From positions 1 through 32,910 of the forward strand of contig NZ_NHOY01000001.1 of NCBI RefSeq assembly GCF_002252755.1: 32,910 bases of DNA. Reading direction: 5' to 3'. Every line of letters begins with the position of its first letter. Position 1 is the stretch's first letter. Source of the stretch: Halorubrum sp. Hd13. GTDB taxonomy: Archaea > Halobacteriota > Halobacteria > Halobacteriales > Haloferacaceae. Under the pieces are notes generated by a model. The model saw only the letters and a list, made by a program, of their open reading frames with translations, was not told the origin of the DNA and did no database searches. A program made the translations under genes and the position numbers. Positions 3,280 through 22,073 of the stretch are shown here, one piece after another.

Positions 3280-3314
3280 ATGCCAATTGATACCCGCCTC
3301 TATCAAAAAGGTTC

Positions 3315-3333
3315 CCCCACCTCTATCGAAGTG
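3315..3333 (-). repeat. Degenerate inverted repeat copy at the orc1 promoter
   Basis: CCCCACCTCTATCGAAGTG keeps CTCTATCGA and the terminal GTG of the inverse consensus but has a broken G-run. It lies 36-54 bases before the orc1 start, just upstream of the TATA-like box, where a bound initiator could control its own gene. Confidence 0.5.
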
Positions 3334-3364
3334 TGATTAGCCGTGTGAAACCCGTGATACCGGA

Positions 3365-3396
3365 TTAACCACTTGATAATCATGATAATGGGTTAA
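3365..3396. promoter_or_regulatory. Inverted repeat upstream of orc1
   Basis: TTAACC (3365-3370) and GGTTAA (3391-3396) flank a 20-base A/T-rich spacer containing the internal palindrome ATAATCATGATAAT-like core. The arms equal the outer six bases of the longer palindromes at 274-313 and 4060-4100, so a shared DNA-binding protein is possible. Confidence 0.45.
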
Positions 3397-3445
3397 CTGG
3401 CGGTAGCCGGTGACGATGTGTTCGTGAGTACACGGTCGAAGACAC

Positions 3446-3464
3446 ACACCCCTCTATCGATGTG
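3446..3464 (-). repeat. Inverted origin repeat copy
   Basis: ACACCCCTCTATCGATGTG is the exact inverse of the consensus 19-mer. It is the only perfect copy in this orientation and faces the forward cluster that starts at 3634. Confidence 0.85.
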
Positions 3465-3633
3465 TTTTTGCACAAGAGTCCAGAGGGATATCTGCGTTAC
3501 GTCAGGTCAATCTACCGGTGATCGGTAGAAACCACACGCTTAACATCCTCTTGAATGGGTTTGGACGATAGAATAGTAGGATAGAAAACGTTGTCTGATA
3601 AACCACAGAACATAAAGGGCGCAACACATCGAA

Positions 3634-3992
3634 CACATCGATAGAGGGGTGTGTGTGTATCGTGTTAGTAGTAAAAGAAGAAGAAGAGAAGAAGACGATT
3701 TCAGCTACGGATAGAGAACTGTTAATAGAGGCTATCCCGCTCATACGACTTCGTGGCGCCGTCAAGTGGCAGTTCCTCGACGCAAGATCTAGGTTTATCC
3801 CCCACCCCGTGAATACATCGAACACATCGATAGAGGGGTGTGTGTCTCGACGTTCGACGAGTAGACAGTCGCGTTCGTTGGGATCGCACCGATGCCTGCG
3901 ACCAAGCGGTGAATGCGGCACTGACGGATCGCCTCTTCCCGCCTATCTCATGGCTCCCACGACAGAACGTGAACACATCGATAGAGGGGTGT
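3634..3992 (+). repeat. Three forward origin recognition box-like repeats
   Basis: Perfect copies of CACATCGATAGAGGGGTGT lie at 3634-3652, 3823-3841 and 3974-3992. The first two are preceded directly by a half copy (CACATCGAA at 3625-3633; TACATCGAA at 3814-3822), giving a nine-base tandem step. Confidence 0.85.
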
Positions 3993-4059
3993 CTCTTCGA
4001 TCACGGGCTCCATACAATCGAGACAAAGTGTGTCAATCCGAAATCCCTTGCAATCATAT

Positions 4060-4100
4060 TTAACCAACAAAATTCTTTCATCCGCAAGCGTGTTGGTTAA
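4060..4100. promoter_or_regulatory. Second large palindrome, far edge of the origin island
   Basis: TTAACCAACA (4060-4069) and TGTTGGTTAA (4091-4100) repeat the arms at 274-313 with a 21-base spacer. No gene follows directly; a degraded tnpB end does. It may be an orphaned operator or a site-specific recombination or boundary site. Confidence 0.55.
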
Positions 4101-4128
4101 GACCGAGTCACGTTCGCGAACGCATTTA

Positions 4129-4251
4129 GTTACGGCACCTAGTTTGGGTGTGGATAGGAGTACTGGCTGGTTGGCACAGCCCGGAGTCTACCTGTATGAT
4201 CTCACCTACGGATTCCAACCGCAGGCTGAGGTGGTAGACTGCAAACCTTGA
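4129..4251 (+). pseudogene. C-terminal fragment of TnpB
   Basis: The readable tail DRSTGWLAQPGVYLYDLT...AEVVDCKP closely matches the end of the complete TnpB at 20 kb (DNGWLAQPAVHLFDRS...EQVVNRES). Everything upstream (RuvC domain, zinc ribbon) is missing. The exact 5' limit of the fragment is uncertain; homology is clear from about 4159. Its stop codon (4249-4251) lies at the junction with the minus-strand element at 4248-4860, and the matching right end continues at 4861-4909. Confidence 0.7.
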
Positions 4252-4860
4252 CATCCTCCCCGCGCTGAAGCGCGAGCATTCCTTCGTGGGGCGTCGGGCC
4301 GTTCTGTCAGCCCCCGAAGGCAACTTCCCCTCCCGCTGGAGGGTACCGAGTTCGTGCGCTACACGTCGGCCCTCGAAACGAGGGTATGGTGTATTCAACG
4401 TCCGAGAGGGACGCGGTATCCGCTTGTGCCGTACCCGATACCGCTTGACCGAAGCGTCCGAATACCTGGCAACCACCCACGGTTGGAACGTGGACGGACA
4501 CGGGTCGTGCCATCGACCGTACTCCGCCGACGAAGGCGGAGTGCAACCGCGAACGGGGCGTGTTTTGATGTGCTGTCGCCCCCTCGTGTGCGCGGTCGTT
4601 GCCGACCGTCCCCAGTGACGGGTAGGGTTACTGTGAGGACGGCGGACGAACCTTAACCACGTACTCCCCACCGGGTTTGCCGGTGGTGGGCGTGGAACCG
4701 TCCGTATCAGCGGGAAGCAACCCCGTGTCTTCCGATTGAGAGTTTACGCGATTGGCTTGCCGCACGGCACGACGCCGGGCTACTTGATAATGTCGGTTGT
4801 TGAGGGTTTGTCGGATTCATCCCCGCGCTAAAGCACGGGGCTTTCTCCTCGATTTTCCGT
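4248..4860 (-). mobile_element. Non-autonomous IS200/IS605-type (TnpB family) element, nested
   Basis: Read on the minus strand, the left end near 4860 holds the hairpin CCCCGTGCTTTAGCGCGGGG (4821-4840) followed by GATGAATCCGACAAAC, the same left end as the tnpB element at 32.5 kb. The right end (4277 to 4248) holds GCTCGCGCTTCAGCGCGGGG and then AGGATGTCAA, the same right end as the complete element at 21.1 kb. The interior of about 530 bases contains several hairpins (for example the inverted CCCACCGG arms near 4667-4690) and no convincing TnpB domain, so it is probably an internally deleted or decayed element that would need a helper. It interrupts an older plus-strand element. Confidence 0.65.
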
Positions 4861-4909
4861 AATATCCCCACCTCGGGATTCCTCCGCCTGAAGAGGAGGA
4901 CGATGTCAA
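4861..4909 (+). mobile_element. Right end of the older, interrupted TnpB element
   Basis: AATATCCCCACCTCGGGATT and the hairpin that follows, ending GATGTCAA, align with the right end downstream of the complete tnpB (AATATCCCAACGCGGGAATC at about 21048-21067, ending GATGTCAA at 21095). Together with the TnpB tail that stops at 4251 this rebuilds one plus-strand 3' end split by the insertion. Confidence 0.65.
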
Positions 4910-5202
4910 TGCCAGCCGAGTTGATGAAGCCGTTCGGTTACCACTCGTTGAAGCTGATCTCTATTCTTTGAATATATTCTCCTCCGGAACAGTTTGTCGC
5001 TAAATGTAATATATTAAACACTGAAGAACCCATCAACTCAGAAAATATCTAAAATTATTCGAGATAAACAGACCGAATGAAGAATATAGTTCGGTTTTAA
5101 ATAACTAGTGATAGTTCAGTGTAGAACATCTATGATTCACGGCAGGACTGGCGATCGATGGCCGTATCGAACTTTGATCGATCGGGCCAAACCGAGAACC
5201 TC
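4910..5202. other. A/T-rich non-coding stretch with a possible terminator
   Basis: No gene is seen. ACCGAA (5072-5077) and TTCGGT (5090-5095) can form a stem with T- or A-rich flanks and lie downstream of the minus-strand wHTH gene ending at 5203, so they may be its terminator. The rest (4970-5110) is markedly A/T-rich compared with its neighbours. Confidence 0.4.
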
Positions 5203-5538
5203 CTAGTCACAGAATCGAATAACGAGTTCGCGAGTTCGGAGCGCGTAGACGGTCATCTCTCGCCCTTTTTTCGAGTACCACGTCTGGGTGGGCTCGATGA
5301 GGTCCCCATCGACGAGGCGGTCGAGATGATAGCAGGTGTTCTGAAGCGATGTCCCGACTGCCGTGGCGATCTCCGAGGCCGGCTTGGGCTCTTCCTCAAT
5401 CGTGGCAACGATCGCTCGCGCCGTCGTTGAGGAGAGCAGCTCCCAGACAGCTGCGGACTCGTCTCCGGTGACAGAGAGTCGTACTTGATCTTCCGGTACG
5501 TGTTCGACCGGCGGCTGTCGTGGTAACGCACTATTCAT
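5203..5538 (-). CDS. ArsR-like winged-helix regulator
   Basis: This 111-residue DNA-binding protein has an ArsR/HTH_20-like core: WELLSSTTARAIVATIEEEP is the first helix pair, SEIATAVGTSLQNTCYHLDR the helix-turn-helix, and LIEPTQTWYSKKGREMTVYA the wing. No cysteine-based metal site is seen. It differs from the other small regulators nearby, which carry the ATVYRRLDRL-type recognition helix. It is followed on the same strand by nothing but IS debris, and it lies 123 bases downstream of the next minus-strand regulator. Its target is unknown; family members often act as repressors. Confidence 0.85.
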   Translation of the reverse strand: MNSALPRQPPVEHVPEDQVRLSVTGDESAAVWELLSSTTARAIVATIEEEPKPASEIATAVGTSLQNTCYHLDRLVDGDLIEPTQTWYSKKGREMTVYALRTRELVIRFCD

Positions 5539-5661
5539 TGTCTCGTGTCAGATCGCCATTGTCCATTGGCTTGGATGGTCGTGAGGAACACCATTCGCAT
5601 AAAACCGACCTAGCGCTTCTTGACCGGAGACGGTGTCTGGTCTCATCATGGTTTGCTGCGG

Positions 5662-6051
5662 TCACCGTCGTTCCTCGGTCGTTAACCGTACCGTGACCGA
5701 CACCGTGCCCGATTCGACTGTCACGTGGAGTCGGTCCATCCGTATTTGGTACGTTTCACAGTGGTGTCCGTCGGGGTCGACGTACAGTTCGGTCGCGACA
5801 AGCCCGGCCGCTTCGAGGCGGTCAAGCCGGCGGTAGACCGTCGCCCGCGACGCCTCGCAAGCGTCTATCAGGTCTCGTCCACGCTTGGGACCCCGACAGA
5901 GTGCTTCCAGTATATTCTGCGTGTGTTCGTTGTCTAATAGCTCGAGTAGTACCGGGGCCGAATCGGCCGTCCGCGGCCCTTCGGAACCATCCCCAGACGT
6001 ACTGTCACCGTCCGGTGATGATTCGGTCGCCAAATCGGCAGTCGTTGCCAT
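5662..6051 (-). CDS. Small winged-helix regulator (TVYRRL type)
   Basis: A 129-residue regulator. A disordered acidic N-terminus (about 1-30) precedes a helix-turn-helix with DLIDACEASRATVYRRLDRL and the following LEAAGLVATELYVD. The C-terminal part (HHCETYQIRMDRLHVTVESG) is a beta-rich region shared with the regulators at 7550, 15690 and 21732. It lies just downstream, on the same strand, of the FAD-monooxygenase-like gene ending at 6151 and may be transcribed with it. I infer local control of that gene or of membrane functions; no ligand site is recognisable. Confidence 0.85.
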   Translation of the reverse strand: MATTADLATESSPDGDSTSGDGSEGPRTADSAPVLLELLDNEHTQNILEALCRGPKRGRDLIDACEASRATVYRRLDRLEAAGLVATELYVDPDGHHCETYQIRMDRLHVTVESGTVSVTVRLTTEERR

Positions 6052-6150
6052 CGTATCACTTCATTATCGCTCTCTCCCCTATCCCTGCTGGCTACGTGTA
6101 CTACCACCGACCACCAGACGGGGCTATTCAGATAGATGTGTGATGCATTA

Positions 6151-7323
6151 TCAACGATCTGCAGCAATTCCATGTTTAAAAGAATGAGCGGCTCCAGTCA
6201 CGTGACTAAACGCGAGCTGTCGAGCGAAAAACAGGAGCCGAAGCTCCGGTGACAGTGACGGATCGGGTGCTTGTACGTCGTCAAGCCAGGTTCGGAACCG
6301 GGCCGAGAGCTTTCGGCGACGCTGTTCGTACGACGAAAGCGCCTCCGTCATCGTTCCGGACGCGTCCGTGATCGCCGCTGCGAGCGACCATGACGTTTCG
6401 ATATCCGTGCTGGGACCGAGATGCGTTCCGGGGAGGGCTGTTCGCGCGGCCGGCCCAATAAGCCCGATCTGTCCGGTCGATACGGACGTCGGAGCCGCGA
6501 GCCGTACCCGGCGGTACTCGAACCCGCCGTTTTTGAGCACACGTCTGAGGTCAGCCGGCGGCGAACTGAGGTGACTAAACCGATCGGCGATAGCGTCGGC
6601 TGATACGGCCGCGCGAGCGGGAGTCTCTGCCGTCGTAACGAACCGCAGGGAGGTGCTGTCACCAGTTGGAGTCGAGAATGTTGCCGCCGAGGGACCCCAC
6701 GATTCGGTCGCTCTCGACGTCGTTTCGAATTGGTGACATTCCCACGTGTGGACGCGTCCGTCGGGTTCCGCCGTTTGATCGGCGCTGAGAGACTGGTCCG
6801 CCGTCACTGCGACGTCGAACGACTCTGTCCCTTCGTGATCGAACGTCGCTTGGACTCCCGATGCGGCCGACTCGAGTGCTGTCACGGCTCTGTTGGTCTC
6901 TCGAACACGGCCACGGACGGCTTGCTCTAACAGGGCCCGCAGTTGATCTCGTTTAATTGCGACCAATGCGATCTCGGTCGACCCGTCCGCCTCCCACGAC
7001 TTCTCGCTGCTTGTCCGATCGAGTTCCGTCACCGGCGTGCCACACCGCTCCACCGACTGCCGCAGCCCCAGCTGGTCGAGGACACGCAACCCGGGCTCCC
7101 AAATGACGGTCACACGCGGCGGTGATCGGTCGCTCGGGGACGGAGCGAGCAGCGGATCGAACCCGGCTCGGTCGAGCAGTCCTGCCGTCACGAGCGCTGA
7201 AAAGCCGGTGTCGGCTATCAGTATCTCCTTCTCCCGGTCGCGGTGTGTTCCCGAGACGCCGTTGTCATACTGCCGCGATACGACGGGCGGTGCTCGTGTC
7301 GACCGTTCCTCACCGGCGTTCAT
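6151..7323 (-). CDS. Degenerate FAD-dependent monooxygenase homologue
   Basis: The 390-residue length and layout fit the PHBH-fold FAD monooxygenases. IADTGFSALVTAGLLDRAGF occupies the place of the GxGxxG dinucleotide-binding motif but lacks the glycine pattern. RDQLRALLEQAV matches the conserved R-x2-L region, and GPAARTALPGTHLGPSTDIE stands where the family has GDAAH...GQG..AIED. The DG motif region (FDVAVTADQS) is also altered. I infer a protein that has lost or changed FAD binding, perhaps a regulatory or pseudo-enzyme relative. The reading frame is long and clean, so it is not obviously dead. A divergent wHTH gene starts at 7550 and another wHTH gene follows at 6051. Confidence 0.65.
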   Translation of the reverse strand: MNAGEERSTRAPPVVSRQYDNGVSGTHRDREKEILIADTGFSALVTAGLLDRAGFDPLLAPSPSDRSPPRVTVIWEPGLRVLDQLGLRQSVERCGTPVTELDRTSSEKSWEADGSTEIALVAIKRDQLRALLEQAVRGRVRETNRAVTALESAASGVQATFDHEGTESFDVAVTADQSLSADQTAEPDGRVHTWECHQFETTSRATESWGPSAATFSTPTGDSTSLRFVTTAETPARAAVSADAIADRFSHLSSPPADLRRVLKNGGFEYRRVRLAAPTSVSTGQIGLIGPAARTALPGTHLGPSTDIETSWSLAAAITDASGTMTEALSSYEQRRRKLSARFRTWLDDVQAPDPSLSPELRLLFFARQLAFSHVTGAAHSFKHGIAADR

Positions 7324-7549
7324 TGCCGGTCACGCAGGGATCCGGGCGTCCGATCGCTTGGACCGATACAACACACAGACCGTCTGGACGACAGCATATA
7401 ACAACCGATGGACGGTGGTCTCCCTAAATCGGCAACCGCTGTTTCTGTGTATGAGAGGAAGGCGGGTAATATGAATAGCCCTGTTACTCCGCCCCAATCA
7501 GTTCGGACTACCAGTACGCTTGGGTAGAGCGGCGTCGTTGTCGTCTCTA

Positions 7550-7930
7550 ATGACGGCGCACCTCCTAACGACCGACCCAGACGAACGATCAGAGACCCTC
7601 GGAACCGACGCGAATCGCAACCCCGAAGTCTCGGCGGAAGAGCTACTCGCACTGTTCGGTGATGAGTACACGTGCGACATTCTCACGTCCCTCGAGGGGG
7701 AGCCGAAGCCTGCGCGGGCACTGGCCGAAGACTGCGGAATGTCCCGTCCAACCGTATATCGACGCCTCAACCGCTTAGCCGACGCCGGCCTCGTCGATGA
7801 ACGGCTACAGTTAGCCTCGGGCGGCAACCACAGAAAGGAGTTCCAGCTCGTGATCACTGCCGTTACGTTCGACGTGAATGAGGACGGATTCGCTGGCTAC
7901 ATCGATTCCCCTGGTCGCGATATCGACTGA
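7550..7930 (+). CDS. Small winged-helix regulator (TVYRRL type)
   Basis: A 126-residue protein starting MTAHLLTTDP; an in-frame TTG at 7520 is less likely. EELLALFGDEYTCDILTSLE is the first helix pair, LAEDCGMSRPTVYRRLNRLA the helix-turn-helix and LVDERLQLASGGNHRKEFQL the wing. It is a close paralogue of the genes at 5662 and 15690 and shares the short beta-rich C-terminus. It is divergent from the FAD-monooxygenase-like gene, with a shared intergenic region at 7324-7549, so it is a natural candidate regulator of that gene. Ligand unknown. Confidence 0.85.
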   Translation: MTAHLLTTDPDERSETLGTDANRNPEVSAEELLALFGDEYTCDILTSLEGEPKPARALAEDCGMSRPTVYRRLNRLADAGLVDERLQLASGGNHRKEFQLVITAVTFDVNEDGFAGYIDSPGRDID

Positions 7931-8000
7931 CCGTCGCCTGAGTCGAGTCACACCCATTACTCGTATACGCCTCCCGCCTCGGGTCAAACGCACGGGCGAC

Positions 8001-11000
8001 TTACCCCGACTCGGTGTCGCCGAACAGCAGGTCGAACACCTTGCGCTCGCCGAGTCGGATGTGTTTGTTCACCGTCGGCTGCGTGATTCCGAGCGCGTCC
8101 GCCACGGCCTCCCCGCTGCTGTCGCGCGGCCTGTTGAAATACCCCATCGCGTGACCCGTCTTGAGCGCCTCGTACTGTCGTTCGCTCAATCGGTCTTCGA
8201 GCCGACTTCTGATCCCTCCCGGGGTCGCCTCTGTCTGGCGATTCTGGCGCTGTGCGGTGAGCTCCAACGCCGGGAACGAATCGGTAATGCGGTCGACGAT
8301 CGTGCGAGTGTCCGCTTCTCGCGGGAGTTCGACGATCAGCTTGACGACTTCCGGCGTCGCTCGACTGTGACGAAGGACTCCACCGTACTCAGGGATCGGG
8401 GACCCGAACCACGACGAGCCGCGACGTTCGAGGACGGTCTGCCCGCCGCCACGGGACACGACGGTGACCGACCCGGGGAGTAACTCGTCGGCCCGCTCGG
8501 TGACCTTCGACGGCGAGTCCGACTCGAGCGTGTAATAGACGCTGATCGACTCGTTTTGCCGCCGGACCGTCCGTTCGAGCCGGACCGGACACTCGAACTC
8601 CCGGGCGAGCCGAGCGAACGGGAGATCCATGTCACTCCCTTGGAACTCCAGCTCCAGCGTGTCGTCCGACTCCAGCGCGCGGCGTCGTTCGATGGCCGTG
8701 ATCGCGTACCCGATCGAGGTGCCCAGCTGTGAGAGGATGTCTCTGTCCCGATCACCGAACGCGTCGGTCTCGTCGGCAATAACGGTCAAAATGCCATAGG
8801 TGATACCGTCGTACGCGAGCGGAACCGCACAGACTGCGCCCGCTCCCGCCCGCAAGAGGTCGCGCCGCCAGTCGCTCCGACGACCCCCCGCTGCGGGATC
8901 AGTCACTACGCGCGACTCGCCCCGTTGCCACGCGTCTCTCGCCGGATGGAGATCCGAACGATCACGGTCTCCCCCAAGCGCTCTTTCGACGTCTTCACGC
9001 GTCGTGCCGACGACGGCCCGGGGCGTCAGTCGGTCAGTTCCCACCTCGGCCGTCGCGACCCACGCGGCGGTAAACGGACCCGTCTCCAACAGCTCCTCAC
9101 AGACGGCCTCCTGGATACCCTCTTGAGAGGAGCGAGTCGTGATCGCGGCTTCGACGCGGCTCGTTACCTCCGTGATAGATTCCAGGTGTTCGGCACGCTC
9201 CGTCTGTTTCGCCAGCTCCTCACGCCGATCCTCCAGTTTGCGTTCCCCGTGAAGCCGATTCAGCGCGGCCTCGAGCGTCGCGGCGACGATGCTCGCAGCC
9301 TCCGTGTCAAACGCCTCATCGGCCCTCCACACGGCGAGGATACCGTTCCCGCCGAGCGGGACCAGCAATACGGTGTCGTCACTGTCGATATGAAGCACCG
9401 ACGCCGCCTCCGCCTCCACCCGTCGGATGGTCTCGTCGACGAACACCTCCCAGACAGCGGTATCGGCGGCCGTCACCGAGTCCAACTCGCTCGGCGGCGG
9501 CGCCTTCGGGCCCGTCGCAATCGGATCGAGTTCCCCGGCCGACGATCCGTAGTGGTACACGGCGGTCGCCGGCATATCGAACACCGTTGCCGTGGCCTCG
9601 GTCGCGACGGTACCGGCCTCGGTCACGGTCTCAGCCGTCGTCAGTTCCGCGGTCGCATCGTGGAACGACTCCAACGACCGCTCGCGTTCCTTCTGTTGCG
9701 TGACGTCACGGCTTACGATGACGACCCGCGGAGGCCCATCCTCCCACTCGGTCGGATAGAAGTCCGAGCGGACCCATCTCCGCTCCCCGTCCGGTCGTTC
9801 GATGCGGAACTCCCTCGTGTACCGCTGGTCCGCGTCGCCCTGCTCGACGGCACCGCTCACCCGCTCGACGAACGCCATGTAGTCGTCGTAGTCGTCGGGG
9901 TGGATCGTCCCGAAAAACCCCTCCTCGTGCGTCTTTTGGAGCTCATCGAGCGATCGCCCCCAAATCTGGTCGTATCCGGAGCTGACGAAGTCCGGGGCCG
10001 GCTCCGGCTCCGTCAGTTCAGCGGCCGGCGCGAGGAAAATGGTCTCGTCGATACGGTCGACGATGGCCTCGAGTCGGCGTTGGTTCTCCCGAAGCTGCCG
10101 AGAGTTCGCGACACGCTCGAGCGCACCGGTGACGTGGCCTGCCAGCACCTGCATAATGTCGACGAAGTACGACGCGTACTCGTCTCGGTGCCCGTGGCCC
10201 GCCGCCAGCAGCCCCCGGCCGCCGAGCGGGACGAGGACCGCGGCTGTCAATGGGTTGTGGTCACGATGGCGGCTCGGATCATACGTCGTCGCCTCCCCGC
10301 GCTCGAAGAGCTCGTACTCACGGTCACCGCGCGTAAATGAGTCCGGACCGATCGGCATCTCTTCGACGGGCTTCGTTCCGGCGGCGTACTCCAGCCGCCG
10401 CCGATCATCGTCGAGACGCCAACACGCCGCCATCGGTAGGTCGAGCACGTCACTCGCCGTCTCGACGGCGATCTCGTACACCGCGTCCGCCGTCTCTGCG
10501 CCCTGAAGGCGTTCGGTGGCCGTCTGGAGCTGCTCGACGGCTCGTTCGCGCTGGCGGCGCTCAGTCACGTCCCGAATCGTCGCTAGGGTTGCCGGCGAAC
10601 CTTCATGCTGAATACGCGACACAGACGTCTCCAACGTCAGCCGTGTCCCGTCGGGTCGTTCGACTTCGAGATCGTACTGGTCTGGCGGAGATTCTCCCGC
10701 TACCCGCCGCTGGTAGCGTTCCCTGACGAGATCGCGATACCCTTCGGTGAACACACGCTGGAACGGCATCCCGAGCAGCGCCGACTCCTCCCGGCCAGTC
10801 ATCGCCGTGAACTGCTCGTTGACGAAGACGTATTCGCCGTCCCTGACGACGACCACGCCGTCGGTACTCTGCTCGACCAGCGTCGAGTATTTTTCGCGTT
10901 CCTCCTCGATCGTCCGTTCCCGACGCTTCCGTTCGGTGATGTCGGTGTACCAGACGTACGCGTGTCGTCGACCGTCCACCTCGAACGGCAACACCCGAAG

Positions 11001-12467
11001 CAGGAAGTCCCGGACCCCGTCCGCCGATTCCCGTCGGACTTCCGTTTCCACCGGCTCGCCGTCGATAACCTGTCGGCGGATCGCATCATACCCTTCCCGT
11101 TCAGAGTCGGGGACCACAACGTCGGCTATCGGCCGGTCTGCTGCCGTTTCGTCGTTGACGCCGAAATCGGTCTCAAACGCTGAGTTGACCTCGGTGATAT
11201 ACGGCTCTCCGTCGACGAACTCGACGGTCATAATCGGATCGGGCGTGTTTTCGAAGAGAATAGACCGCCTGTCTCGCTCGGTTTCGAGGCGGCGCTGCCG
11301 CCTACGGCGTTCGGTGATATCTCGTGAGATGGCGAGGAACCGTTCCTCGCCGTCGATAACCGCGCTGGTCGGATTGACCTCTAGCCACCGACGCTCGCCG
11401 TCCGCCGTCTCGATGGCTTGCTCGTACGGCTCAACGTCGTCCCCCTCCGCTACTCGCTCGATAATTCGTGGTATCCGCATGGGGTCAAACGATTCAGTCG
11501 CTACCGTGATCCCCTTCGCACCCCGCTCTAAGAGCGTCTCACGATCGTACCCCGTTATCGAACACAGCGTCTCGTTGACTCTACACAGCTCTCCGGTTTC
11601 CGGGTCGTGAACGGCGATCGCGTCGTTCACCCCGTTGAATATCTGCTCGTACTCGCGTTCCCGTCGTTTCCGTTGCGTAATGTCCCGCTGAATGGAGAGC
11701 ACACGGGGTTTCCCGCCGATCATCGCCGGCGCTAACGTCGCTTCTAACCATACTTTCTCCCCGATTCGCGTCCGGCCACGCCACTCGACTGTCACCGACT
11801 CATCGGTTTCCGCGACCTCCTTGATAAGCTCCCAGCCGCGGTCTGCTGTGTACCCCTCCGCCGAGACGCTGAGCCCGTCAATACCAAGCTCGCGAATCGT
11901 CTCGATGTCGTCGTATCCGAGTAGCTCGTGATAGGATTCGTTGACGTCTGCGAACTCACGGTTTTTCGGGTCGAACACGACGATGGCGTCGTTCACGCCG
12001 TCGAATATCTGCTCGTAGTCACGACTGCGGTACTCTCCCTGTGTCAGTTCCGGAGTCGTCGCGTCGTCCTCCGTCTCTCTGCGCTCATCCGCCCGTTCCC
12101 GATCAGCGATCGTTTTCAGCCACTCAGCCGCCACCTTCGGGCTCGACAAGATCAGTGACCGCGGAACATGGGCCGTCGCACCGCCCCGGATCGCCGTCTC
12201 AACGCCGCCCGTATCCGTGGTAACCGCAACGACGGGGAGCGGCGATATTTCGTCCGCGAGCCGGTCGATAACCGATCCCCACGACGCCGACGGGAGACCC
12301 TGCTGAACGACGACGGCGTCGACGCCGGAAAGCCGGGCGGTATCGGCAGACGACGACAGGGATACTACCTCTACCGAGAAGGAGTCGGGATCGATGGAGC
12401 GGAGGAGGCTCCCGATCGCGGCGTCTCCGACGACACCGATCCGATACTGTTGTGAGACGTTGCTCAT
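8001..12467 (-). CDS. Giant multi-PAS/GAF HTH_10 (Bat-like) regulator
   Basis: This 1488-residue cytoplasmic transcription factor belongs to the bacterio-opsin-activator type. Rough order: degenerate receiver-like region (1-120), PAS domains near 150-268, 275-395, 400-520 and 525-640 (each ending in DITxRKRRER-like linkers), GAF near 645-790, a fifth PAS near 800-930, two more GAFs near 940-1085 and 1110-1270, a Bat-associated domain (DMLPFARLAREFECP-like, written DMDLPFARLAREFECP) near 1275-1425, and the terminal HTH_10 with LSERQYEALKTGHAMGYF and ALGITQPTVNKHIR. No histidine-kinase domain is present, so sensing is coupled directly to DNA binding. Family members respond to light, oxygen or redox. 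It has a TATA-like minus-strand box near 12484-12492 and follows the sensor-lipoprotein genes on the same strand. No bop gene is in the window, so its target is unknown. Confidence 0.93.
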   Translation of the reverse strand: MSNVSQQYRIGVVGDAAIGSLLRSIDPDSFSVEVVSLSSSADTARLSGVDAVVVQQGLPSASWGSVIDRLADEISPLPVVAVTTDTGGVETAIRGGATAHVPRSLILSSPKVAAEWLKTIADRERADERRETEDDATTPELTQGEYRSRDYEQIFDGVNDAIVVFDPKNREFADVNESYHELLGYDDIETIRELGIDGLSVSAEGYTADRGWELIKEVAETDESVTVEWRGRTRIGEKVWLEATLAPAMIGGKPRVLSIQRDITQRKRREREYEQIFNGVNDAIAVHDPETGELCRVNETLCSITGYDRETLLERGAKGITVATESFDPMRIPRIIERVAEGDDVEPYEQAIETADGERRWLEVNPTSAVIDGEERFLAISRDITERRRRQRRLETERDRRSILFENTPDPIMTVEFVDGEPYITEVNSAFETDFGVNDETAADRPIADVVVPDSEREGYDAIRRQVIDGEPVETEVRRESADGVRDFLLRVLPFEVDGRRHAYVWYTDITERKRRERTIEEEREKYSTLVEQSTDGVVVVRDGEYVFVNEQFTAMTGREESALLGMPFQRVFTEGYRDLVRERYQRRVAGESPPDQYDLEVERPDGTRLTLETSVSRIQHEGSPATLATIRDVTERRQRERAVEQLQTATERLQGAETADAVYEIAVETASDVLDLPMAACWRLDDDRRRLEYAAGTKPVEEMPIGPDSFTRGDREYELFERGEATTYDPSRHRDHNPLTAAVLVPLGGRGLLAAGHGHRDEYASYFVDIMQVLAGHVTGALERVANSRQLRENQRRLEAIVDRIDETIFLAPAAELTEPEPAPDFVSSGYDQIWGRSLDELQKTHEEGFFGTIHPDDYDDYMAFVERVSGAVEQGDADQRYTREFRIERPDGERRWVRSDFYPTEWEDGPPRVVIVSRDVTQQKERERSLESFHDATAELTTAETVTEAGTVATEATATVFDMPATAVYHYGSSAGELDPIATGPKAPPPSELDSVTAADTAVWEVFVDETIRRVEAEAASVLHIDSDDTVLLVPLGGNGILAVWRADEAFDTEAASIVAATLEAALNRLHGERKLEDRREELAKQTERAEHLESITEVTSRVEAAITTRSSQEGIQEAVCEELLETGPFTAAWVATAEVGTDRLTPRAVVGTTREDVERALGGDRDRSDLHPARDAWQRGESRVVTDPAAGGRRSDWRRDLLRAGAGAVCAVPLAYDGITYGILTVIADETDAFGDRDRDILSQLGTSIGYAITAIERRRALESDDTLELEFQGSDMDLPFARLAREFECPVRLERTVRRQNESISVYYTLESDSPSKVTERADELLPGSVTVVSRGGGQTVLERRGSSWFGSPIPEYGGVLRHSRATPEVVKLIVELPREADTRTIVDRITDSFPALELTAQRQNRQTEATPGGIRSRLEDRLSERQYEALKTGHAMGYFNRPRDSSGEAVADALGITQPTVNKHIRLGERKVFDLLFGDTESG

Positions 12468-12557: not shown

Positions 12558-13310
12558 TTATCTTGCTGTTTTCCCGGGACTGAGCGTTAACTCTGCCCAG
12601 CGTGCGCAGATCCACCCCCCTGCGGTTAGGATATTCATCCCGAGCAGCAGAACGAATACCCCGAGTACCGACAGCAGTAGTGCTCCCGGAAGCGTCGAAA
12701 CTTCCCACGACGTGAGACGAACGATGAACGAGATCCCGACCTCGAACTGTTCCCAAGGGACGACGAGCGAGAGTTCCCGCTGAATCGGTTCAGGCAGGAA
12801 GACTCCGACTGAGGTACCGGGCATATCGTAGTACAGCGGGGCTCCGAGCAGCGACAGTCCGACGGAAAGGACGACCACGATGACCGTGAAAGCGGCGACA
12901 CCGATAGCCAGCTTCGAGAGTACGAAAATAAGCGACCCCCACAAAACGGGATTCGTCAGCACCGTCAGTACCTGGTCACGCAGTCGAGACGCTTCCGAAA
13001 GCCCCCACGACGGGGCAGGGATATCGGCGCCGAGCAACCGCCGCGCTACAACACGTTCGGCGGCGGCGACAACCACGACACCGCCTAACGTCGCTGCGAG
13101 AATCGGCAGGCCGATCAAGAGCACTGACAGGCTGATTCCGAGTGACAGCCCGACAACGGTGCCAACGAAGTACCCGATTCCGAGCGGGAACGCGAGGGCG
13201 AGATACAATATCACCCCATACGTCCGGCGTCGAAACGGAACTAACACCACCTGTCGAACTGAGGGGAGGGTGGTCGAGACGTCCGATACCGGGTCCGAGA
13301 GAGCCATCAA
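12558..13310 (-). CDS. Standalone 'sensor' domain membrane protein
   Basis: A 250-residue integral membrane protein with the haloarchaeal/actinobacterial Sensor-domain pattern: PFRRRTYGVILYLALAFPLG with two N-terminal membrane helices, a soluble stretch, then LGAPLYYDMPG and a hydrophobic C-terminal pair (LLLSVLGVFVLLLGMNIL). It is a clear paralogue of the protein at 14268-14954 (matching FPLGIxYF, LxLxIGxPI and the LYYDMPG/LYDAPG motif). In other organisms this domain is often fused to histidine kinases; here it stands alone and sits between a DUF4097-type lipoprotein and the giant regulator. I infer that it reports membrane state to a partner. A second ATG at 13307 is equally possible. Confidence 0.8.
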   Translation of the reverse strand: MMALSDPVSDVSTTLPSVRQVVLVPFRRRTYGVILYLALAFPLGIGYFVGTVVGLSLGISLSVLLIGLPILAATLGGVVVVAAAERVVARRLLGADIPAPSWGLSEASRLRDQVLTVLTNPVLWGSLIFVLSKLAIGVAAFTVIVVVLSVGLSLLGAPLYYDMPGTSVGVFLPEPIQRELSLVVPWEQFEVGISFIVRLTSWEVSTLPGALLLSVLGVFVLLLGMNILTAGGWICARWAELTLSPGKTAR

Positions 13311-13334
13311 CGGAACGTTTGGTGTGTCATCGTG

Positions 13335-13341
13335 TATAAAT
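13335..13341 (-). promoter_or_regulatory. TATA box of the sensor gene at 13310
   Basis: ATTTATA on the minus strand is centred about 28 bases before the start codon, the spacing expected for a leaderless haloarchaeal transcript. It gives this gene its own promoter in addition to any read-through. Confidence 0.6.
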
Positions 13342-13378
13342 CCCGTCTTGTCGTCGGGGAGAACCGCTCCGGCGCTGG

Positions 13379-14275
13379 TCAGGCTCGAAGGAAGACGTCT
13401 CCGTCGTTGGTATGCGCCCGTAGCGGCGTGGTACCGTCGCCGACGACCGCCTCCAGTTGGGACTCCGTCTGACTCCGGATCTGCACCCCGGAGGTCACGT
13501 CGCTGACGAGTATTTCACCGTCGGCCGTGGCTGCCGTGAGTACCGTATCGAGCGTCTCTCCTATCCGCAGGACCAAGTTGCCGTCCGACGACACGACCTC
13601 GGCGTCATCGGCCACAGCCGGGACGTCAGTCGCAACGTTCCCGTCTCGGGTGCTGATCTCGCCGACACGCGCCGGGTCCCGCACCTGTATCGACCCGTCC
13701 TGCGTGGCCGCCGAGAGCGTACCGTCCGTCCCGTCGACGGAGATGTCTCCGTCGCTCGTCTCTGCTGTGACGTCGCCCCGAGCGTCAGTGATCTGAATCG
13801 CGCCGTCTCGGGTGCGGAGCGCGGCACCGTCCGGGACTCGCTGTGCCGTCACCGCCCCGTCAGCGGTCTGGAGCCGATCAACAGCCATCTCCTCGGGCAC
13901 ATACAGTTCCAAAGACACGCTTGCTCCGCCGAGACCGATAACGTCCGGCTTGTCAGTAGTGATCTCGACGCGGTCAGCAGTCGTTTCCACGTCGACCGTC
14001 AGTTCGTCGAGCGAAACGCCACCAAACGCCTCCTTCTCGGCGATGATCTTGACGTCATCGCGCGGTTCGGCCGTGAAGGCGATCGCGTCCGTCGCATCGA
14101 CTACCGCGAGCGTCGCGTCCGTCGGCGGGTCGACCGTCCGCTCGTCGGTCGTTCCGTCGCGTTCGATCCGGACGACCGACCCGCAGCCGGCGAGCGTGCT
14201 CGCGATTGCGGCGCCGGCCACGCCGAGCACTCTCCGCCGAGAGGTATCGGCGTCTACCGTGTTGCGGTCAAGCAT
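13379..14275 (-). CDS. Exported DUF4097-type beta-strand lipoprotein
   Basis: This 298-residue protein carries a twin-arginine signal and lipobox: SRRRVLGVAGAAIASTLAGC, cleaved before Cys. The mature part is a right-handed repeat of short acidic strands built on DGxI/V units (TRDGAIQITDARGDVTAETS, then DGDISV, DGSIQV, RDGNVATDV, SDGNLVL, DGEILV, NDGDVFLRA), typical of the DUF4097 putative-adhesin fold. It would sit on the outer face of the membrane. The start MLDRNTV at 14275 overlaps the end of the upstream sensor gene by 8 bases, so the two are probably co-translated. DUF4097 proteins elsewhere travel with PspC- and sensor-type envelope proteins, which agrees with an envelope-stress role here (inference). 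Confidence 0.88.
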   Translation of the reverse strand: MLDRNTVDADTSRRRVLGVAGAAIASTLAGCGSVVRIERDGTTDERTVDPPTDATLAVVDATDAIAFTAEPRDDVKIIAEKEAFGGVSLDELTVDVETTADRVEITTDKPDVIGLGGASVSLELYVPEEMAVDRLQTADGAVTAQRVPDGAALRTRDGAIQITDARGDVTAETSDGDISVDGTDGTLSAATQDGSIQVRDPARVGEISTRDGNVATDVPAVADDAEVVSSDGNLVLRIGETLDTVLTAATADGEILVSDVTSGVQIRSQTESQLEAVVGDGTTPLRAHTNDGDVFLRA

Positions 14276-14954
14276 CGGCACCACCTGTCACCGACGTCTT
14301 CGAACCCCCGAGTAGCGCGTTCGTGAGGAAGCCGCCGAAACGGGCCAGCCCGTTGAGCAGGTGGAGCGACACGAGGACGAGAACGACGCCACAGCCCGCG
14401 CCGACCACCGCTTCGCCGAGCGTATCGACGACGTACGGTCCGAGCGTGTAGGTCATGCCCGGCGCGTCGTACAGTATCGGGAGCGACAGTAGCGTCACCG
14501 ATATCGCACCCGCAGTGACGACGGCCGTGAAGGCGACGACGCCGAACACGAACTTCAGCCCGACGAGTAGCAGCCCGGTCCACGTCGCCGGGGTCGTGAC
14601 GACGCGTTTCGTCGTCTCGATGACCTCGTCGACCGATCCGAAGTCCAACTCGACGTTCGGCGCCGAGCGATTGACTTCCACGTCGAGGAGCCATCCGGCC
14701 AAGTGGGCCTCGAAGGAGCCGATGCCGAGCGTCACCACGAGCGTCGCGACGATGATCGGGATGCCGATTAGCGTCACCACGAGACTGAGACCGGTCGAGA
14801 GCCCGGTCGTGATCACCGTGAAGTACGCGATCCCGAGCGGGAACGCTAACAGGAGGTACGCGAGGTTGCGATACGTCTGCCGCTGAAACGGCACACCGAC
14901 GAACTGTGCGAGCGCGTCGATCGGTGAACTTGGGGACCAAGCGGGTTCGCTCAT
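14268..14954 (-). CDS. Standalone 'sensor' domain membrane protein
   Basis: A 228-residue membrane protein of the same family as the one at 12558. PFQRQTYRNLAYLLLAFPLG opens the first membrane pair, followed by LVVTLIGIPIIVATLVVTLG; a soluble stretch around residues 90-120 follows, then SLPILYDAPGMTYTL and a C-terminal helix pair. It is the first gene of the sensor-DUF4097 pair and has a strong TATA box at 14986-14994. The overlap with the lipoprotein gene suggests the two proteins work together, one in the membrane and one outside it. The signal sensed is unknown. Confidence 0.82.
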   Translation of the reverse strand: MSEPAWSPSSPIDALAQFVGVPFQRQTYRNLAYLLLAFPLGIAYFTVITTGLSTGLSLVVTLIGIPIIVATLVVTLGIGSFEAHLAGWLLDVEVNRSAPNVELDFGSVDEVIETTKRVVTTPATWTGLLLVGLKFVFGVVAFTAVVTAGAISVTLLSLPILYDAPGMTYTLGPYVVDTLGEAVVGAGCGVVLVLVSLHLLNGLARFGGFLTNALLGGSKTSVTGGADA

Positions 14955-14985
14955 GTTGCGACTCTACCTTGTGGCGAGACCCACG

Positions 14986-14994
14986 TATAAAATA
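14986..14994 (-). promoter_or_regulatory. TATA box of the sensor-DUF4097 operon
   Basis: TATTTTATA on the minus strand lies 32-40 bases before the ATG at 14954, giving a very short leader. It separates this operon from the wHTH-DUF7521 operon that ends at 15065. Confidence 0.65.
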
Positions 14995-15064
14995 CTGAGC
15001 GCTACAGCGCGGGCAACGCTCCCAAAAATATAAGTACGAAAACTGGTACCCCAAGCCCCAGACG

Positions 15065-15337
15065 TTACGACGTCACCGACCGTGCCAACGCTCCGAGTCC
15101 CGCCAGGTGGGCCACCGTGACACCGAGGACGGTCACCGCGTCCGAGAGCGAAAGCAGGGGTGTCAGGACGTAACTGATCCCGTACGGTACCACGGCGATG
15201 CAGACGACGCCAACTGCCAGCAACAGCATCGTCTGGCTCTCGTTGCGCCGGTGACCGTCGTACGCGAGATACCCGACGTACGCTCCGAGACAGGCGGTCG
15301 CAATCCCGCCCGCCGTCGCGATCACGGGCAACGTCAT
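15065..15337 (-). CDS. DUF7521-family membrane protein
   Basis: A 90-residue protein with three hydrophobic segments: IATACLGAYVGYLAYDGHRR, TMLLLAVGVVCIAVVPYGIS and a C-terminal VLGVTVAHLAGLGAL. The GYxxYxGxRRxxSxxMLLxxxG pattern matches the paralogue at 21424, and I recognise it as the haloarchaeal DUF7521 family (from memory). Its ATG overlaps the preceding stop (ATGA), so it is translationally coupled to the membrane protein at 15334. No catalytic residues are apparent. The repeated partnership with a wHTH gene suggests a membrane partner of that regulator (inference). Confidence 0.8.
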   Translation of the reverse strand: MTLPVIATAGGIATACLGAYVGYLAYDGHRRNESQTMLLLAVGVVCIAVVPYGISYVLTPLLSLSDAVTVLGVTVAHLAGLGALARSVTS

Positions 15338-15693
15338 CGGTATACCACCCCGAGGATGACGAGCAGCCCGCAGAACTTGCTCGCCGTCACCAGAATCGTC
15401 CGTTCGGTACCCGTCACCGAGTCCACGTTGCCGAACGCCAACCGAAGGAACATCGGGAGCGGAGCTAACAACAGCAGTCCGATTGTGAGATACAACAGCG
15501 GACGCCGACGCGTCCGTAGGTACCCGCGTGCGAATCGGTACGTGACAAACACCGCGAGGACGACGGAGAGGAAGAACGCGGCGATCGTGACGGCCGCTAA
15601 CGCGGCGTTGTCGCCGACGACCTCCACTTGTAAGGGAAGCGCCGACTGTTCGGCTTCGGCGAGTCGTGCCACGGTGAGACGGAACAGCATCAT
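15334..15693 (-). CDS. Small membrane protein, DUF7521-like
   Basis: A 119-residue protein with three hydrophobic segments: AALAAVTIAAFFLSVVLAVF, RRPLLYLTIGLLLLAPLPMF and TILVTASKFCGLLVILGVV. The RFARGYLRTRRRPLLYLTIG stretch resembles the YxGxRRxxSxxMLL block of DUF7521 proteins, so it is probably a divergent relative of its neighbour. Both ends overlap adjacent genes by a few bases (start with the wHTH stop at 15690, stop with the ATG at 15337), the mark of a tight three-gene operon. The N-terminus may face outside. Function unknown. Confidence 0.78.
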   Translation of the reverse strand: MMLFRLTVARLAEAEQSALPLQVEVVGDNAALAAVTIAAFFLSVVLAVFVTYRFARGYLRTRRRPLLYLTIGLLLLAPLPMFLRLAFGNVDSVTGTERTILVTASKFCGLLVILGVVYR

Positions 15694-16061
15694 CCGGAGA
15701 GTTCCTCGTACAGTCTGGTCAGTCGGTCGGCGGCCGTTTCGTCGACGTACTCGACGTCGATCTTGAAGCCCGCTGCGGTCAGATCGATCGAGACGTGATC
15801 GAGCCGTGCGGCGTACACTTCGTGAGGCCCCTCGTCGGGGTCGATCTCTTGGACGCTCTCGACGAGATCCTGCTGTTGGAGCCGTTCGAGCCGCCGATAT
15901 ACCGTCGCCTCTGACGCGTCACAGGCGTCACAGAGCGCACTCGCCGAGCGCGTCTCCTCATATGTCTCGATGAGGATCCGCCTGGCGTACTCGTCGTCGA
16001 GCAACGAGTACACTTCGCGGGCGTCGACCACCAGCTCGGGGACCATCCGCTGGGGAGTCAT
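15690..16061 (-). CDS. Small winged-helix regulator heading the DUF7521 operon
   Basis: A 123-residue protein. I start it at MTPQRMVPELVVD (16061); an in-frame upstream start at 16088 would add nine residues. EVYSLLDDEYARRILIETYE forms the first helices, ALCDACDASEATVYRRLERL the helix-turn-helix and the segment from residue 75 the beta-rich C-terminus shared with its paralogues. It ends in an ATGA-type overlap with the membrane gene at 15693. By analogy with small regulator-membrane pairs, membrane proteins made from the same transcript may tune its activity; that is inference. Confidence 0.85.
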   Translation of the reverse strand: MTPQRMVPELVVDAREVYSLLDDEYARRILIETYEETRSASALCDACDASEATVYRRLERLQQQDLVESVQEIDPDEGPHEVYAARLDHVSIDLTAAGFKIDVEYVDETAADRLTRLYEELSG

Positions 16062-16088
16062 TTGGACGCAACTTAACACTCCCGACAC

Positions 16089-16431
16089 GACGAGTCTTAT
16101 CGGCGGTTGAGACGAATATCATGGGGCTTGACCCCGAGGTGATTCACCGGCTGGTCGGAATCATTCAGTAGAGAAGCCTCAGTGGTGAGAGACGTCGCGG
16201 TGTTTCTCAGACTGAGACAGTGGAATACCCTTCTTGATACTTCCGCCTCAAGGAGTACATAGCCGCCGACCGGAGGCGGTTGTCACAGTATCCGGTTGCT
16301 TGGTAGCCCCCCTCCAAACTCTTGCCCCGGTTGGATCGATCTCCCCGCTCGATCCCATCGGTTGCTTGCCCCCCTATCGCTTCGGCCCTCCTTTGAGCCC
16401 GGTTCTCTAATCGCTAGTGAATTACTCTACC
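16089..16431. other. Non-coding stretch between regulator operon and tnpB remnant
   Basis: No gene is seen; a 16-codon frame at 16121-16171 is not convincing. The segment at 16243-16263 (CGCCTCAAGGAGTACATAGCC with three changes) nearly matches the P450 promoter at 22131-22151. From about 16310 to 16430 the sequence is C- and T-rich and is probably the decayed right end of the minus-strand tnpB fragment. Confidence 0.45.
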
Positions 16432-16737
16432 CTACTCGCTCACGGCTGACACCGTTCGCTCCTTGAGGGTAGGGCTTCCTGCTTCCACGACGCGCTTTGC
16501 AGACACCGAATCGGTGTCCGTAGGGAGCGCAGTCTCCACAGGCGGTAATTCGGAGTGAACCACTCCTACGTCTTCGAGACCGCGAGAAAGGATGTTCCAC
16601 GCCGCGTTTGCGTCCCTGTCCGCCTCAAACCCGCAGGCGGGACAAGAGTGTTTACGGACCCACAACGGCTTCTCCGTCGAGACGCCGCAGGACGCACACG
16701 CTTTGGTCGTTGAGGAAGGGGACTTAGTGCCTGCGTT
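16432..16737 (-). pseudogene. C-terminal fragment of a second TnpB type
   Basis: The fragment opens about LNAGTKSPSSTTKACASCGV and contains an intact zinc ribbon (CASC then CPAC) and the RuvC-III block ADRDANAAWNIL with its catalytic Asp. The variable tail ends KERTVSAVSE and the stop at 16432-16434. The N-terminal DNA/RNA-binding part and RuvC-I/II are absent. Sequence after the stop can fold with the end of the gene (TACCCTACTC against GAGGGTAGGG), as usual for the guide-RNA end of these elements. The tail differs from the TnpB at 19774, so it belongs to another subgroup. Confidence 0.8.
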
Positions 16738-19773: not shown

Positions 19774-21048
19774 ATGGGTCGAACCATCCGAACCTTCGAG
19801 GCTACGATTACGAACCAGCAACAGGTTCGTGACGGCCTCGACCAACTCGGATGGGCTGCCTCAAAGCTCTGGAACGTCGGTCGCTACTACGCACAAGAAC
19901 AGTGGGACGAAACGGGCGAGATTCCCGATGACGGGGAACTCAAGACCGAACTCAAAGGCCACGAACGCTACACGGACTTGCATTCTCAATCCAGTCAGCG
20001 CGTTCTCGAAGAACTCGCTGAAGCGTTCAACGGCTGGTTCGGCAAGCGTCGGAACGGCGACGACCGCGCCCGACCGCCCGGCTACCGCAAACACGGAGAT
20101 TCCCACCCGCGTTCAACCGTGTCGTTCAAATCGGCTGGTTTCAAGCACGACGGACAGTTCACCCGTGTCCGCCTCTCGAAAGGCCGTAACCTCAAAGAAC
20201 ACCGTTCAGACTTCATCCTCTGCGAGTACCAGACTCGTCCGGACGTTGACCTGACCAAGTGGGACATTCAACAAGTTCGAGCCGTCTACAAACGCGACGA
20301 GTGGCGGCTTCAATTCATCTGTCGCACCACCATCGACCCGGAACCACCGGGCGATGAGGTAGCTGGTGTAGACCTCGGGATATGCAACTTCGCCGCCGTC
20401 TCGTTCGGCGGAGAATCCGTGTTGTATCCCGGTGGCGCACTCAAAGAAGACGAATACTACTTCACGAAGAAGAAAGCCAAGTGCGACGATTCTTCGTCCC
20501 GTGAGGCTACCCGTCTTGACCGAAAGCGAACGGGTCGCCGGACGCACTTCTTGCACGCACTCTCGAAAGCAATCGTAGAGGAGTGCGTCGAACGAGGCGT
20601 CGGAACCCTTGTCGTGGGCGACCTCGGCGGCATCCGAGAAGGCAACAAGAACGGCAAACCCCGAAATTGGGGCCACCACGGTAATCTCGACTTGCACGGG
20701 TGGGCGTTCGACCGATTCACGACGCTTCTGCACTACAAGGCTGAAGCGGAAGGCATCGACGTGGAGTTGGTGTCCGAACGCGATACGTCGAAGGCGTGTT
20801 CGGCGTGCGGCCACACAGATGACAACCAGCGAGTTGAACGCGGTCTGTACGTGTGTGAGAAGTGCGATACGGTTGCGAACGCGGACGTGAACGGTGCGGA
20901 GAACATTCGACAAAAGGTACTCCCGAGTCTCGCCACAGATGGCGGTGATAGGGATAACGGCTGGTTGGCACAGCCAGCGGTTCACCTGTTCGACCGTAGT
21001 GAGGGTGTTTTCGCCCCACGAGAACAGGTTGTTAACCGCGAATCTTAA
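19774..21048 (+). CDS. tnpB: TnpB RNA-guided endonuclease
   Basis: A 424-residue TnpB from MGRTIRTFEAT. The N-terminal helical part is followed by the RuvC domain: RuvC-I GVDLGICNFAAV with Asp200, RuvC-II region TLVVGDLGGIRE near 279-289, and RuvC-III ANADVNGAENI with Asp371. A zinc ribbon lies between (Cys342, Cys345, Cys361, Cys364). The usual RuvC-II Glu position (in E-D-L) is Gly282 here, with Glu289 seven residues later; this is discussed as a finding. Known TnpBs cut DNA beside the element's target motif using a guide RNA from the right end and favour retention of the element (family knowledge). The tail after residue 385 is variable. Confidence 0.93.
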   Translation: MGRTIRTFEATITNQQQVRDGLDQLGWAASKLWNVGRYYAQEQWDETGEIPDDGELKTELKGHERYTDLHSQSSQRVLEELAEAFNGWFGKRRNGDDRARPPGYRKHGDSHPRSTVSFKSAGFKHDGQFTRVRLSKGRNLKEHRSDFILCEYQTRPDVDLTKWDIQQVRAVYKRDEWRLQFICRTTIDPEPPGDEVAGVDLGICNFAAVSFGGESVLYPGGALKEDEYYFTKKKAKCDDSSSREATRLDRKRTGRRTHFLHALSKAIVEECVERGVGTLVVGDLGGIREGNKNGKPRNWGHHGNLDLHGWAFDRFTTLLHYKAEAEGIDVELVSERDTSKACSACGHTDDNQRVERGLYVCEKCDTVANADVNGAENIRQKVLPSLATDGGDRDNGWLAQPAVHLFDRSEGVFAPREQVVNRES

Positions 21049-21423: not shown

Positions 21424-21735
21424 TTAGCCGCTCGTTCGAAGTGCGATCAGTATCAGTACCATCCCCAGGATGGTTGAGAGCTGTGTCACGGCACCGGCGA
21501 TTGGATCCTTTATGCGATCGGCAAAAACGACGGCTGAACCAACGATGGCTGGGACACCGATAACGAGAATGAACCCAATGCAAAACAGTAGCATCGGTCG
21601 GCTATCACTGCGGCGATAACCGACATAGGCGATATAGGAGATGCTGAGCCCAAGGACAGTGATAAGTATCTCACCGGAGAGCAGCAGCCAATCTATCCCG
21701 GACAGTTCCTGAAGGCCGACCGGTTCCAGAGTCAT
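21424..21735 (-). CDS. DUF7521-family membrane protein
   Basis: A 103-residue protein with three hydrophobic segments: LLSGEILITVLGLSISYIAY, PMLLFCIGFILVIGVPAIVG and TQLSTILGMVLILIALRTSG. YVGYRRSDSRPMLLFCIGF matches the equivalent block of the protein at 15065. Its ATG overlaps the stop of the wHTH gene at 21732 (ATGA), exactly as in the first cassette. Downstream on the minus strand is only the queC remnant on the other strand. Role unknown; a membrane partner of the regulator is inferred. Confidence 0.82.
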   Translation of the reverse strand: MTLEPVGLQELSGIDWLLLSGEILITVLGLSISYIAYVGYRRSDSRPMLLFCIGFILVIGVPAIVGSAVVFADRIKDPIAGAVTQLSTILGMVLILIALRTSG

Positions 21736-22073
21736 AGTTGCTCGATGAATCGCGTCAACCGATCGGCCATCCGCTCGGTCCGTTCGAGCTCATACGAGTA
21801 CGTTCCGTCGTCCAACTCGATGACCAGTTGATCGAATGTCGCACGGAACACTTTCTCTTGTGTGCCGTCTCCGGTTGGCCGGATGCTGGCGGTCAGTAGG
21901 TCGGACTCCTCGAGACGTTCGATCCGGCGGTAGATAGTAGGCTTAGAAGCGTCCAGCCGGTCGGCCAAGTCGTTGACTGTCATGGGTTCGCTGCTCGTTT
22001 CGGCGAGGATAGAGCGTGCAGTCTCGTCCGCGAAGAACCCCGCGAGCGTTTCGAGGTCGCTCTCCCCGCTCAT
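21732..22073 (-). CDS. Small winged-helix regulator of the second DUF7521 cassette
   Basis: A 113-residue protein from MSGESDLETLAGFF. ARSILAETSSEPMTVNDLAD and RLDASKPTIYRRIERLEESD give the helix-turn-helix, with a wing and a short beta-rich tail (DQLVIELDDGTYSYELER). A TATA-like TTTATTC on the minus strand near 22095-22101 sits at leaderless distance. It is divergent from the P450 gene starting at 22174, with only 100 bases between them, so control of the P450 is likely (inference). Confidence 0.87.
   Translation of the reverse strand: MSGESDLETLAGFFADETARSILAETSSEPMTVNDLADRLDASKPTIYRRIERLEESDLLTASIRPTGDGTQEKVFRATFDQLVIELDDGTYSYELERTERMADRLTRFIEQL

Follow-up and report, generated by a model that had tools for sequence, protein, structure and literature searches.

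A winged helix-turn-helix regulator paired with DUF7521 membrane proteins: core of a candidate kinase-free envelope-signalling module in haloarchaea

In the SdpR-SdpI pair of Bacillus subtilis, the polytopic membrane protein SdpI holds the ArsR-like regulator SdpR at the membrane upon an outside signal (PMC1626106). In the HAAS-PadR dyad, a winged helix-turn-helix (wHTH) regulator and its partner are encoded near PspC, LiaI-LiaF-TM and Toastrack genes, and the dyad has been proposed as a replacement for the histidine kinase/response regulator pair (Ravi et al. 2024, PMC11237479). A third point of comparison is offered by the envelope-stress loci LiaFSR/LiaG and yvlABCD of Firmicutes, with their membrane-anchored DUF4097 (Toastrack) protein, the DUF4097 domain of Bacillus LiaG being extracellular (PMC9239133). 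Here, I describe a gene set of Halorubrum sp. Hd13, located in a window of 32,910 nucleotides (nt; the whole stretch analysed, contig NZ_NHOY01000001.1), whose order of transcription on the minus strand is: a wHTH gene, the genes of two small DUF7521 membrane proteins (A and B), a PF13796 membrane protein (Sensor1), a Toastrack lipoprotein, a second PF13796 protein (Sensor2) and a Bat-like regulator. The interpretation favoured here, with moderate confidence, is that the first six form a conserved haloarchaeal envelope-signalling module that works without a histidine kinase and has the wHTH-DUF7521 dyad at its core.

The resemblance to HAAS-PadR lies in the coupling of the wHTH gene to its partner gene (83 of the 92 haloarchaeal wHTH-DUF7521 pairs have a 4-nt stop/start overlap, a form of translational coupling) and in the vicinity of membrane sensors and of a Toastrack gene; the partner, however, is DUF7521, the sensor is PF13796, the Toastrack protein is exported and the host is archaeal. 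The best Pfam family for the window wHTH is HTH_20 (39.1 bits), PadR (PF03551) reaching 24.7 bits, below its cut-off of 27, and the six module proteins have no Pfam match to the HAAS domain (DUF1700, DUF1048, DUF1129), PspC, LiaI-LiaF-TM or PspA; PspC was also not found genome-wide, the search for PspA covering the module only. With SdpR-SdpI the set shares an ArsR-like wHTH encoded beside a membrane partner, but there are two three-helix partners, plus the Sensors and a lipoprotein; the window wHTH scores 19.3 bits against a cut-off of 100 for the SdpR family (NF033789), and no module protein matches the SdpI family in Pfam or NCBIfam. Unlike LiaFSR/LiaG, the module has no kinase, response regulator, LiaF or PspC, and its Toastrack protein matches the LiaG model weakly (26.7 of 285 bits). 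SdpR-SdpI is the closest analogy with experimental backing and HAAS-PadR the closest comparative-genomic one, the set belonging to neither.

Methanosarcina MM2440-MM2441 (PMC3510493) was considered as a studied dyad and not used, its hypothetical gene coming first and its family being unconfirmed. In the open-access literature searched, neither a paper naming DUF7521 nor a description of the wHTH/DUF7521/Sensor/Toastrack set was found. Kinase-free signalling by a wHTH and a membrane partner is already known in kind, and there is a real chance that the module represents a new class of it.

The wHTH-DUF7521 pair

The survey sample comprised 194 genomes of the haloarchaeal class. DUF7521 is present in 193 of them, at about five copies per genome, and, among 14 control genomes, in Haloferax volcanii only. 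The pairing is seen from both sides: all 20 loci of the top-scoring DUF7521 matches have a wHTH gene directly upstream on the same strand, and all 20 loci of wHTH relatives picked for having no listed Sensor nearby (four turned out to hold an unlisted one) have a DUF7521 gene directly downstream. All 40 haloarchaeal loci sampled therefore carry the pair, and the dyad holds with and without Sensors. It is kept, moreover, in 17 of 20 sampled loci from the other classes of the phylum, so that it probably predates the haloarchaea.

A further trait covaries with the partner gene. Each of the 92 DUF7521-paired haloarchaeal wHTH proteins (78 recognised by a strict pattern and 14, as close variants of it, by eye) ends in a C-terminal amphipathic tail, which reads ADRLTRLYEELSG in the window and across the pairs takes the form ..ADRFTRLYEE.. 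or ..ERLAALWSEVRKET, versus none of 43 unpaired wHTH relatives. Such covariation is a hint that the tail may dock onto DUF7521. In the other classes the paired wHTH ends differently, often with ..TTRRxKE.., and the docking idea is not extended to them.

The window holds a second, single dyad (21424-22073, minus strand; PF24365 at 41.8 bits), which has the ATGA overlap and is separated from the module by about 5 kb. Two small open reading frames at 30425-31125 (minus) overlap in a dyad-like style and have no Pfam match.

Sensors and the Toastrack lipoprotein

PF13796 was found in 122 and PF13349 (DUF4097) in 75 of the 194 genomes, and among the matches listed 34 of 90 DUF4097 genes have a Sensor within 10 kb, for which I estimate a chance expectation below one (there is about one Sensor per 3.7-megabase genome). 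Some 80 regions were taken solely for holding a Sensor or a DUF4097 match, hence without regard to wHTH or DUF7521; genes were called in them and iterated hidden Markov models were built. A wHTH gene and at least two DUF7521 genes stand within 3 kb in 48 of the 73 Sensor loci (hereafter core loci), and the DUF7521 genes of the fetched loci number 96 near a Sensor versus 2 elsewhere. A Toastrack gene lies within 3 kb of the Sensor in 34 of the 48, and 26 have both a Toastrack gene and two Sensors near the operon. Histidine-kinase-like motifs occur within 5 kb of only 3 core loci, in agreement with the kinase-free set that the sequence-only reading of the window had proposed. That reading had named a lack of conservation past close relatives among what would refute it; the wHTH/DUF7521 pair/Sensor/Toastrack set clearly passes this check, as it spans at least six haloarchaeal families, with differing flanks.

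This recurrence, together with purifying selection on all six core genes (ratio of non-synonymous to synonymous substitution rates, dN/dS, of 0.04-0.23 versus three Halorubrum species), contradicts the notion that the genes came together by chance in a genomic island and are functionally unrelated; the TnpB-like sequences, the Orc1/Cdc6 gene and the variable GC content of the window would suit that notion, which is nevertheless hardly credible.

In the commonest layout one Sensor is divergent from the wHTH-A-B operon, a second Sensor comes next and the Toastrack gene is beside the second Sensor. Two Sensors flanking the lipoprotein gene, as first seen in the window, are real there but do not make a general layout, since a Toastrack gene between two same-strand Sensors is peculiar to one Halorubrum subgroup. 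An independent record, the plasmid pHsi540 of Haloarcula sinaiiensis, has the same core, in the order Sensor (minus), three genes annotated as hypothetical (plus), Sensor (plus) and another wHTH (plus). An ABC-2 type permease-like gene adjoins six Sensor/Toastrack loci, most with an ABC ATPase gene beside it; in Halobellus sp. DFY28 a Sensor without the dyad has as its neighbours a DUF5518 gene and seven genes for CAAX/CPBP membrane proteases (2680-10460 of locus L206).

The two DUF7521 proteins fall into separate tree groups and keep a fixed order after the wHTH. Protein A, assigned to the family by iterated models and the tree, belongs to the first-position clade and protein B, of about three helices, to the second-position clade; the position labels require 1 and 2 changes on the tree versus a shuffled mean of 47, none of 500 shuffles being as low. 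The separation points to an old duplication maintained as an ordered pair and gives a hint of a possible heteromer. The wHTHs linked to Sensors group together on the wHTH tree (6 changes versus 30 when shuffled; 0 of 500 as low), and relatives of the window wHTH are Sensor-adjacent in 22 of the 25 most similar cases, in 16 at ranks 26-50 and in 5 at ranks 76-150, with a per-genome total of 52. Because short alignments leave many forks unresolved, a single origin of the Sensor-linked form is not proven.

These lineages bear on the main rival explanation, namely that the dyad is the sole signalling unit while Sensors and Toastrack proteins are its regulated targets, effectors of envelope maintenance rather than inputs. 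The dyad does stand alone, with no Sensor, in most of its copies, the Sensors have promoters of their own (TATA-like boxes), and the Sensor gene frequently diverges from the wHTH operon, an arrangement common among regulator targets; yet the Sensor-linked wHTHs for the most part form lineages apart and have an A/B pair of their own, which suggests co-evolution of the upstream parts with the Sensors. Moreover, in actinobacteria the PF13796 domain is fused to histidine kinases as their input; here the same membrane domain stands alone, in a locus that lacks a kinase. On this balance, a role of Sensors and Toastrack as mere targets is rather unlikely, though to be taken seriously.

As to location, 48 of 49 Toastrack proteins of at least 220 residues have a twin-arginine motif and, properly spaced after it, a lipobox; the window protein (SRRRVLGVAGAAIASTLAGC) has both. 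By this signal, the haloarchaeal Toastrack is predicted to be a lipoprotein exported by the twin-arginine translocation (Tat) pathway, which contradicts, for haloarchaea, the argument that Toastrack is intracellular (Ravi et al. 2024, PMC11237479). The division into outside, membrane and inside parts drawn up from the window alone stands accordingly. Three loci, of Hrr. (Halorubrum) yunnanense, Hrr. aquaticum and one more species of the genus, have an additional Toastrack lipoprotein gene, after which comes that of a response-regulator receiver-like protein.

The window and its surroundings

The genes named in the sequence-only reading are all present on one strand and in the order it gave, and both the overlap of Sensor1 with the lipoprotein gene and the wHTH-A-B coupling are real (Table 1). 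The wHTH start had been put at 16061, which, like 16088, is an in-frame start upstream of the ATG at 16046; the latter is the start kept in Hrr. xinjiangense, Hrr. californiense, Hrr. aquaticum and Hrr. yunnanense, and is adopted here.

Table 1. Features of the module and its downstream neighbour in the window
Feature	Coordinates	Strand	Basis or remark
wHTH regulator (HTH_20 type), 118 aa	15690..16046	minus	Pfam; start kept in relatives
DUF7521-like small membrane protein A, 119 aa	15334..15693	minus	PF24365 20.2 bits, below cut-off 27
DUF7521 small membrane protein B, 90 aa	15065..15337	minus	PF24365 30.4 bits, above cut-off
Sensor1, four-helix membrane protein, PF13796, without kinase domain	14268..14954	minus	103.8 bits, 1.3e-29 (cut-off 28.2 bits)
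Toastrack (DUF4097) lipoprotein	13379..14275	minus	PF13349 42.8 bits, cut-off 22.9
Sensor2, PF13796 membrane protein	12558..13307	minus	98.3 bits, 6e-28 (cut-off 28.2 bits)
Bat-like regulator, 1488 aa: PAS x5, GAF x2, BAT, HTH_10	8001..12467	minus	Pfam
TATA-like box GTTAAGTT	16070..16077	minus	about 27 nt 5' of wHTH ATG 16046; leaderless promoter; genus-conserved
TATA-like box 5' of Sensor1	14985..14993	minus	read from sequence
TATA-like box	13334..13340	minus	about 30 nt 5' of Sensor2 ATG 13307; read from sequence

The wHTH/A and A/B overlaps are of the 4-nt ATGA type (15690/15693 and 15334/15337), and the Toastrack start (ATG 14275, possibly GTG 14284) overlaps the Sensor1 stop. As each Sensor has its own TATA-like box, the genes make up a cluster of transcription units rather than a single operon. 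Relatives of Sensor1 are 85-89% identical in the four Halorubrum species named above and those of Sensor2, whose loop between the final two helices is longer, 86-89% in named Halorubrum species; in Hrr. yunnanense, Sensor2 is broken by a TGA stop (locus L024, 3152-3763, minus).

The Bat-like gene comes next after Sensor2, in the same orientation, in just three cases: the window, Hrr. xinjiangense and Hrr. californiense. A single route comprising the whole stretch and ending in two DNA-binding outputs, as had been supposed, would account for this adjacency, but the gene is not beside the module in other core loci, including those of Hrr. aquaticum and Hrr. yunnanense despite a Sensor1 85% identical, which makes it a clade-limited neighbour. 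HTH_10 proteins are, besides, common in haloarchaea: with its BAT and HTH_10 domains, the 1488-residue protein resembles their Bat/HTH_10 regulators, but it lies outside the conserved module, and its membership in a common route is very improbable. Downstream of it are three unpaired wHTH genes (5203-7930), kept with the Bat-like gene in Hrr. xinjiangense and Hrr. californiense.

Just 5' of the wHTH gene, at 16430-16700 (minus), is a remnant of a TnpB-like zinc ribbon (CASCG...CPACGFEADRDANAAWNI, recognised by eye), and a TnpB-like open reading frame of 424 residues is found at 19774-21048 (plus), the family being putative in both cases; these sequences may represent mobile-element surroundings of the module. 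An Orc1/Cdc6 gene (1810-3306, minus; Cdc6_lid 9.4e-25) points to a possible replication origin inside the window or close by.

Mobile-element surroundings would also be in keeping with an immunity or defence function of the SdpR-SdpI kind, in which the exported protein or a Sensor would detect a membrane-active peptide of competitors (halocins) and the module would confer resistance. The logic of an ArsR-like wHTH with a membrane partner is the same, the spread is patchy (34 of 73 Sensor loci are complete) and ABC transporter genes are beside a few loci; the lack of any recurring toxin-like gene, and of SdpI or SdpR family matches above cut-off, nonetheless leaves immunity an improbable function.

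Proposed mechanism and significance

I infer that the wHTH/DUF7521/Sensor/Toastrack set carries a signal, and likewise of which stress. In the core dyad, the wHTH is translationally coupled to one or two three-helix DUF7521 proteins; in the extended form, A and B are accompanied by one or two four-helix Sensors and usually by the lipid-anchored, exported Toastrack beta-helix protein. The latter, together with the outward loops of the Sensors, would track surface or membrane state, which the Sensors would relay within the membrane to the A/B pair; this pair might hold or release the wHTH at the membrane via the C-terminal amphipathic helix of the wHTH, and capture or release would alter transcription both within the module and at targets outside it.

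Several observations weigh against this proposal. The Toastrack gene is absent from 14 of the 48 core loci and a second Sensor from others, so that neither is essential to the dyad, and the amphipathic tail is absent from the paired wHTHs of the other classes of the phylum. No operator motif common to the families was found in the 5' regions of the 48 wHTH genes, beyond the TATA-like boxes, a near-palindrome over the wHTH TATA box being confined to some Halorubrum loci (three). AlphaFold models, built on 9-row alignments, are of low confidence (predicted local distance difference test, pLDDT, of 44 for Sensor1 and of 62 for DUF7521, the latter with three helices), too low for judging contacts. 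A search of solved structures gave no relatives of the Sensors and weak matches only for Toastrack and wHTH.

Envelope-to-gene signalling without histidine kinases is largely open in archaea, and the module provides a defined and testable case of it. The membrane part of the dyad is nearly universal in the haloarchaea surveyed, including the genetically tractable Haloferax volcanii, and the public annotation of a named copy, on pHsi540, reads 'hypothetical protein'. The Tat-lipoprotein Toastracks call into question whether Toastrack domains are intracellular in general. More broadly, and tentatively, at somewhat less than even confidence, wHTH-DUF7521 may be an ancient, unnamed class of membrane-coupled regulator of the Halobacteriota, a kinase-free 'two-component' system present in several copies per haloarchaeon, of which the Sensor/Toastrack version would be an envelope-stress pathway with its Toastrack protein outside.

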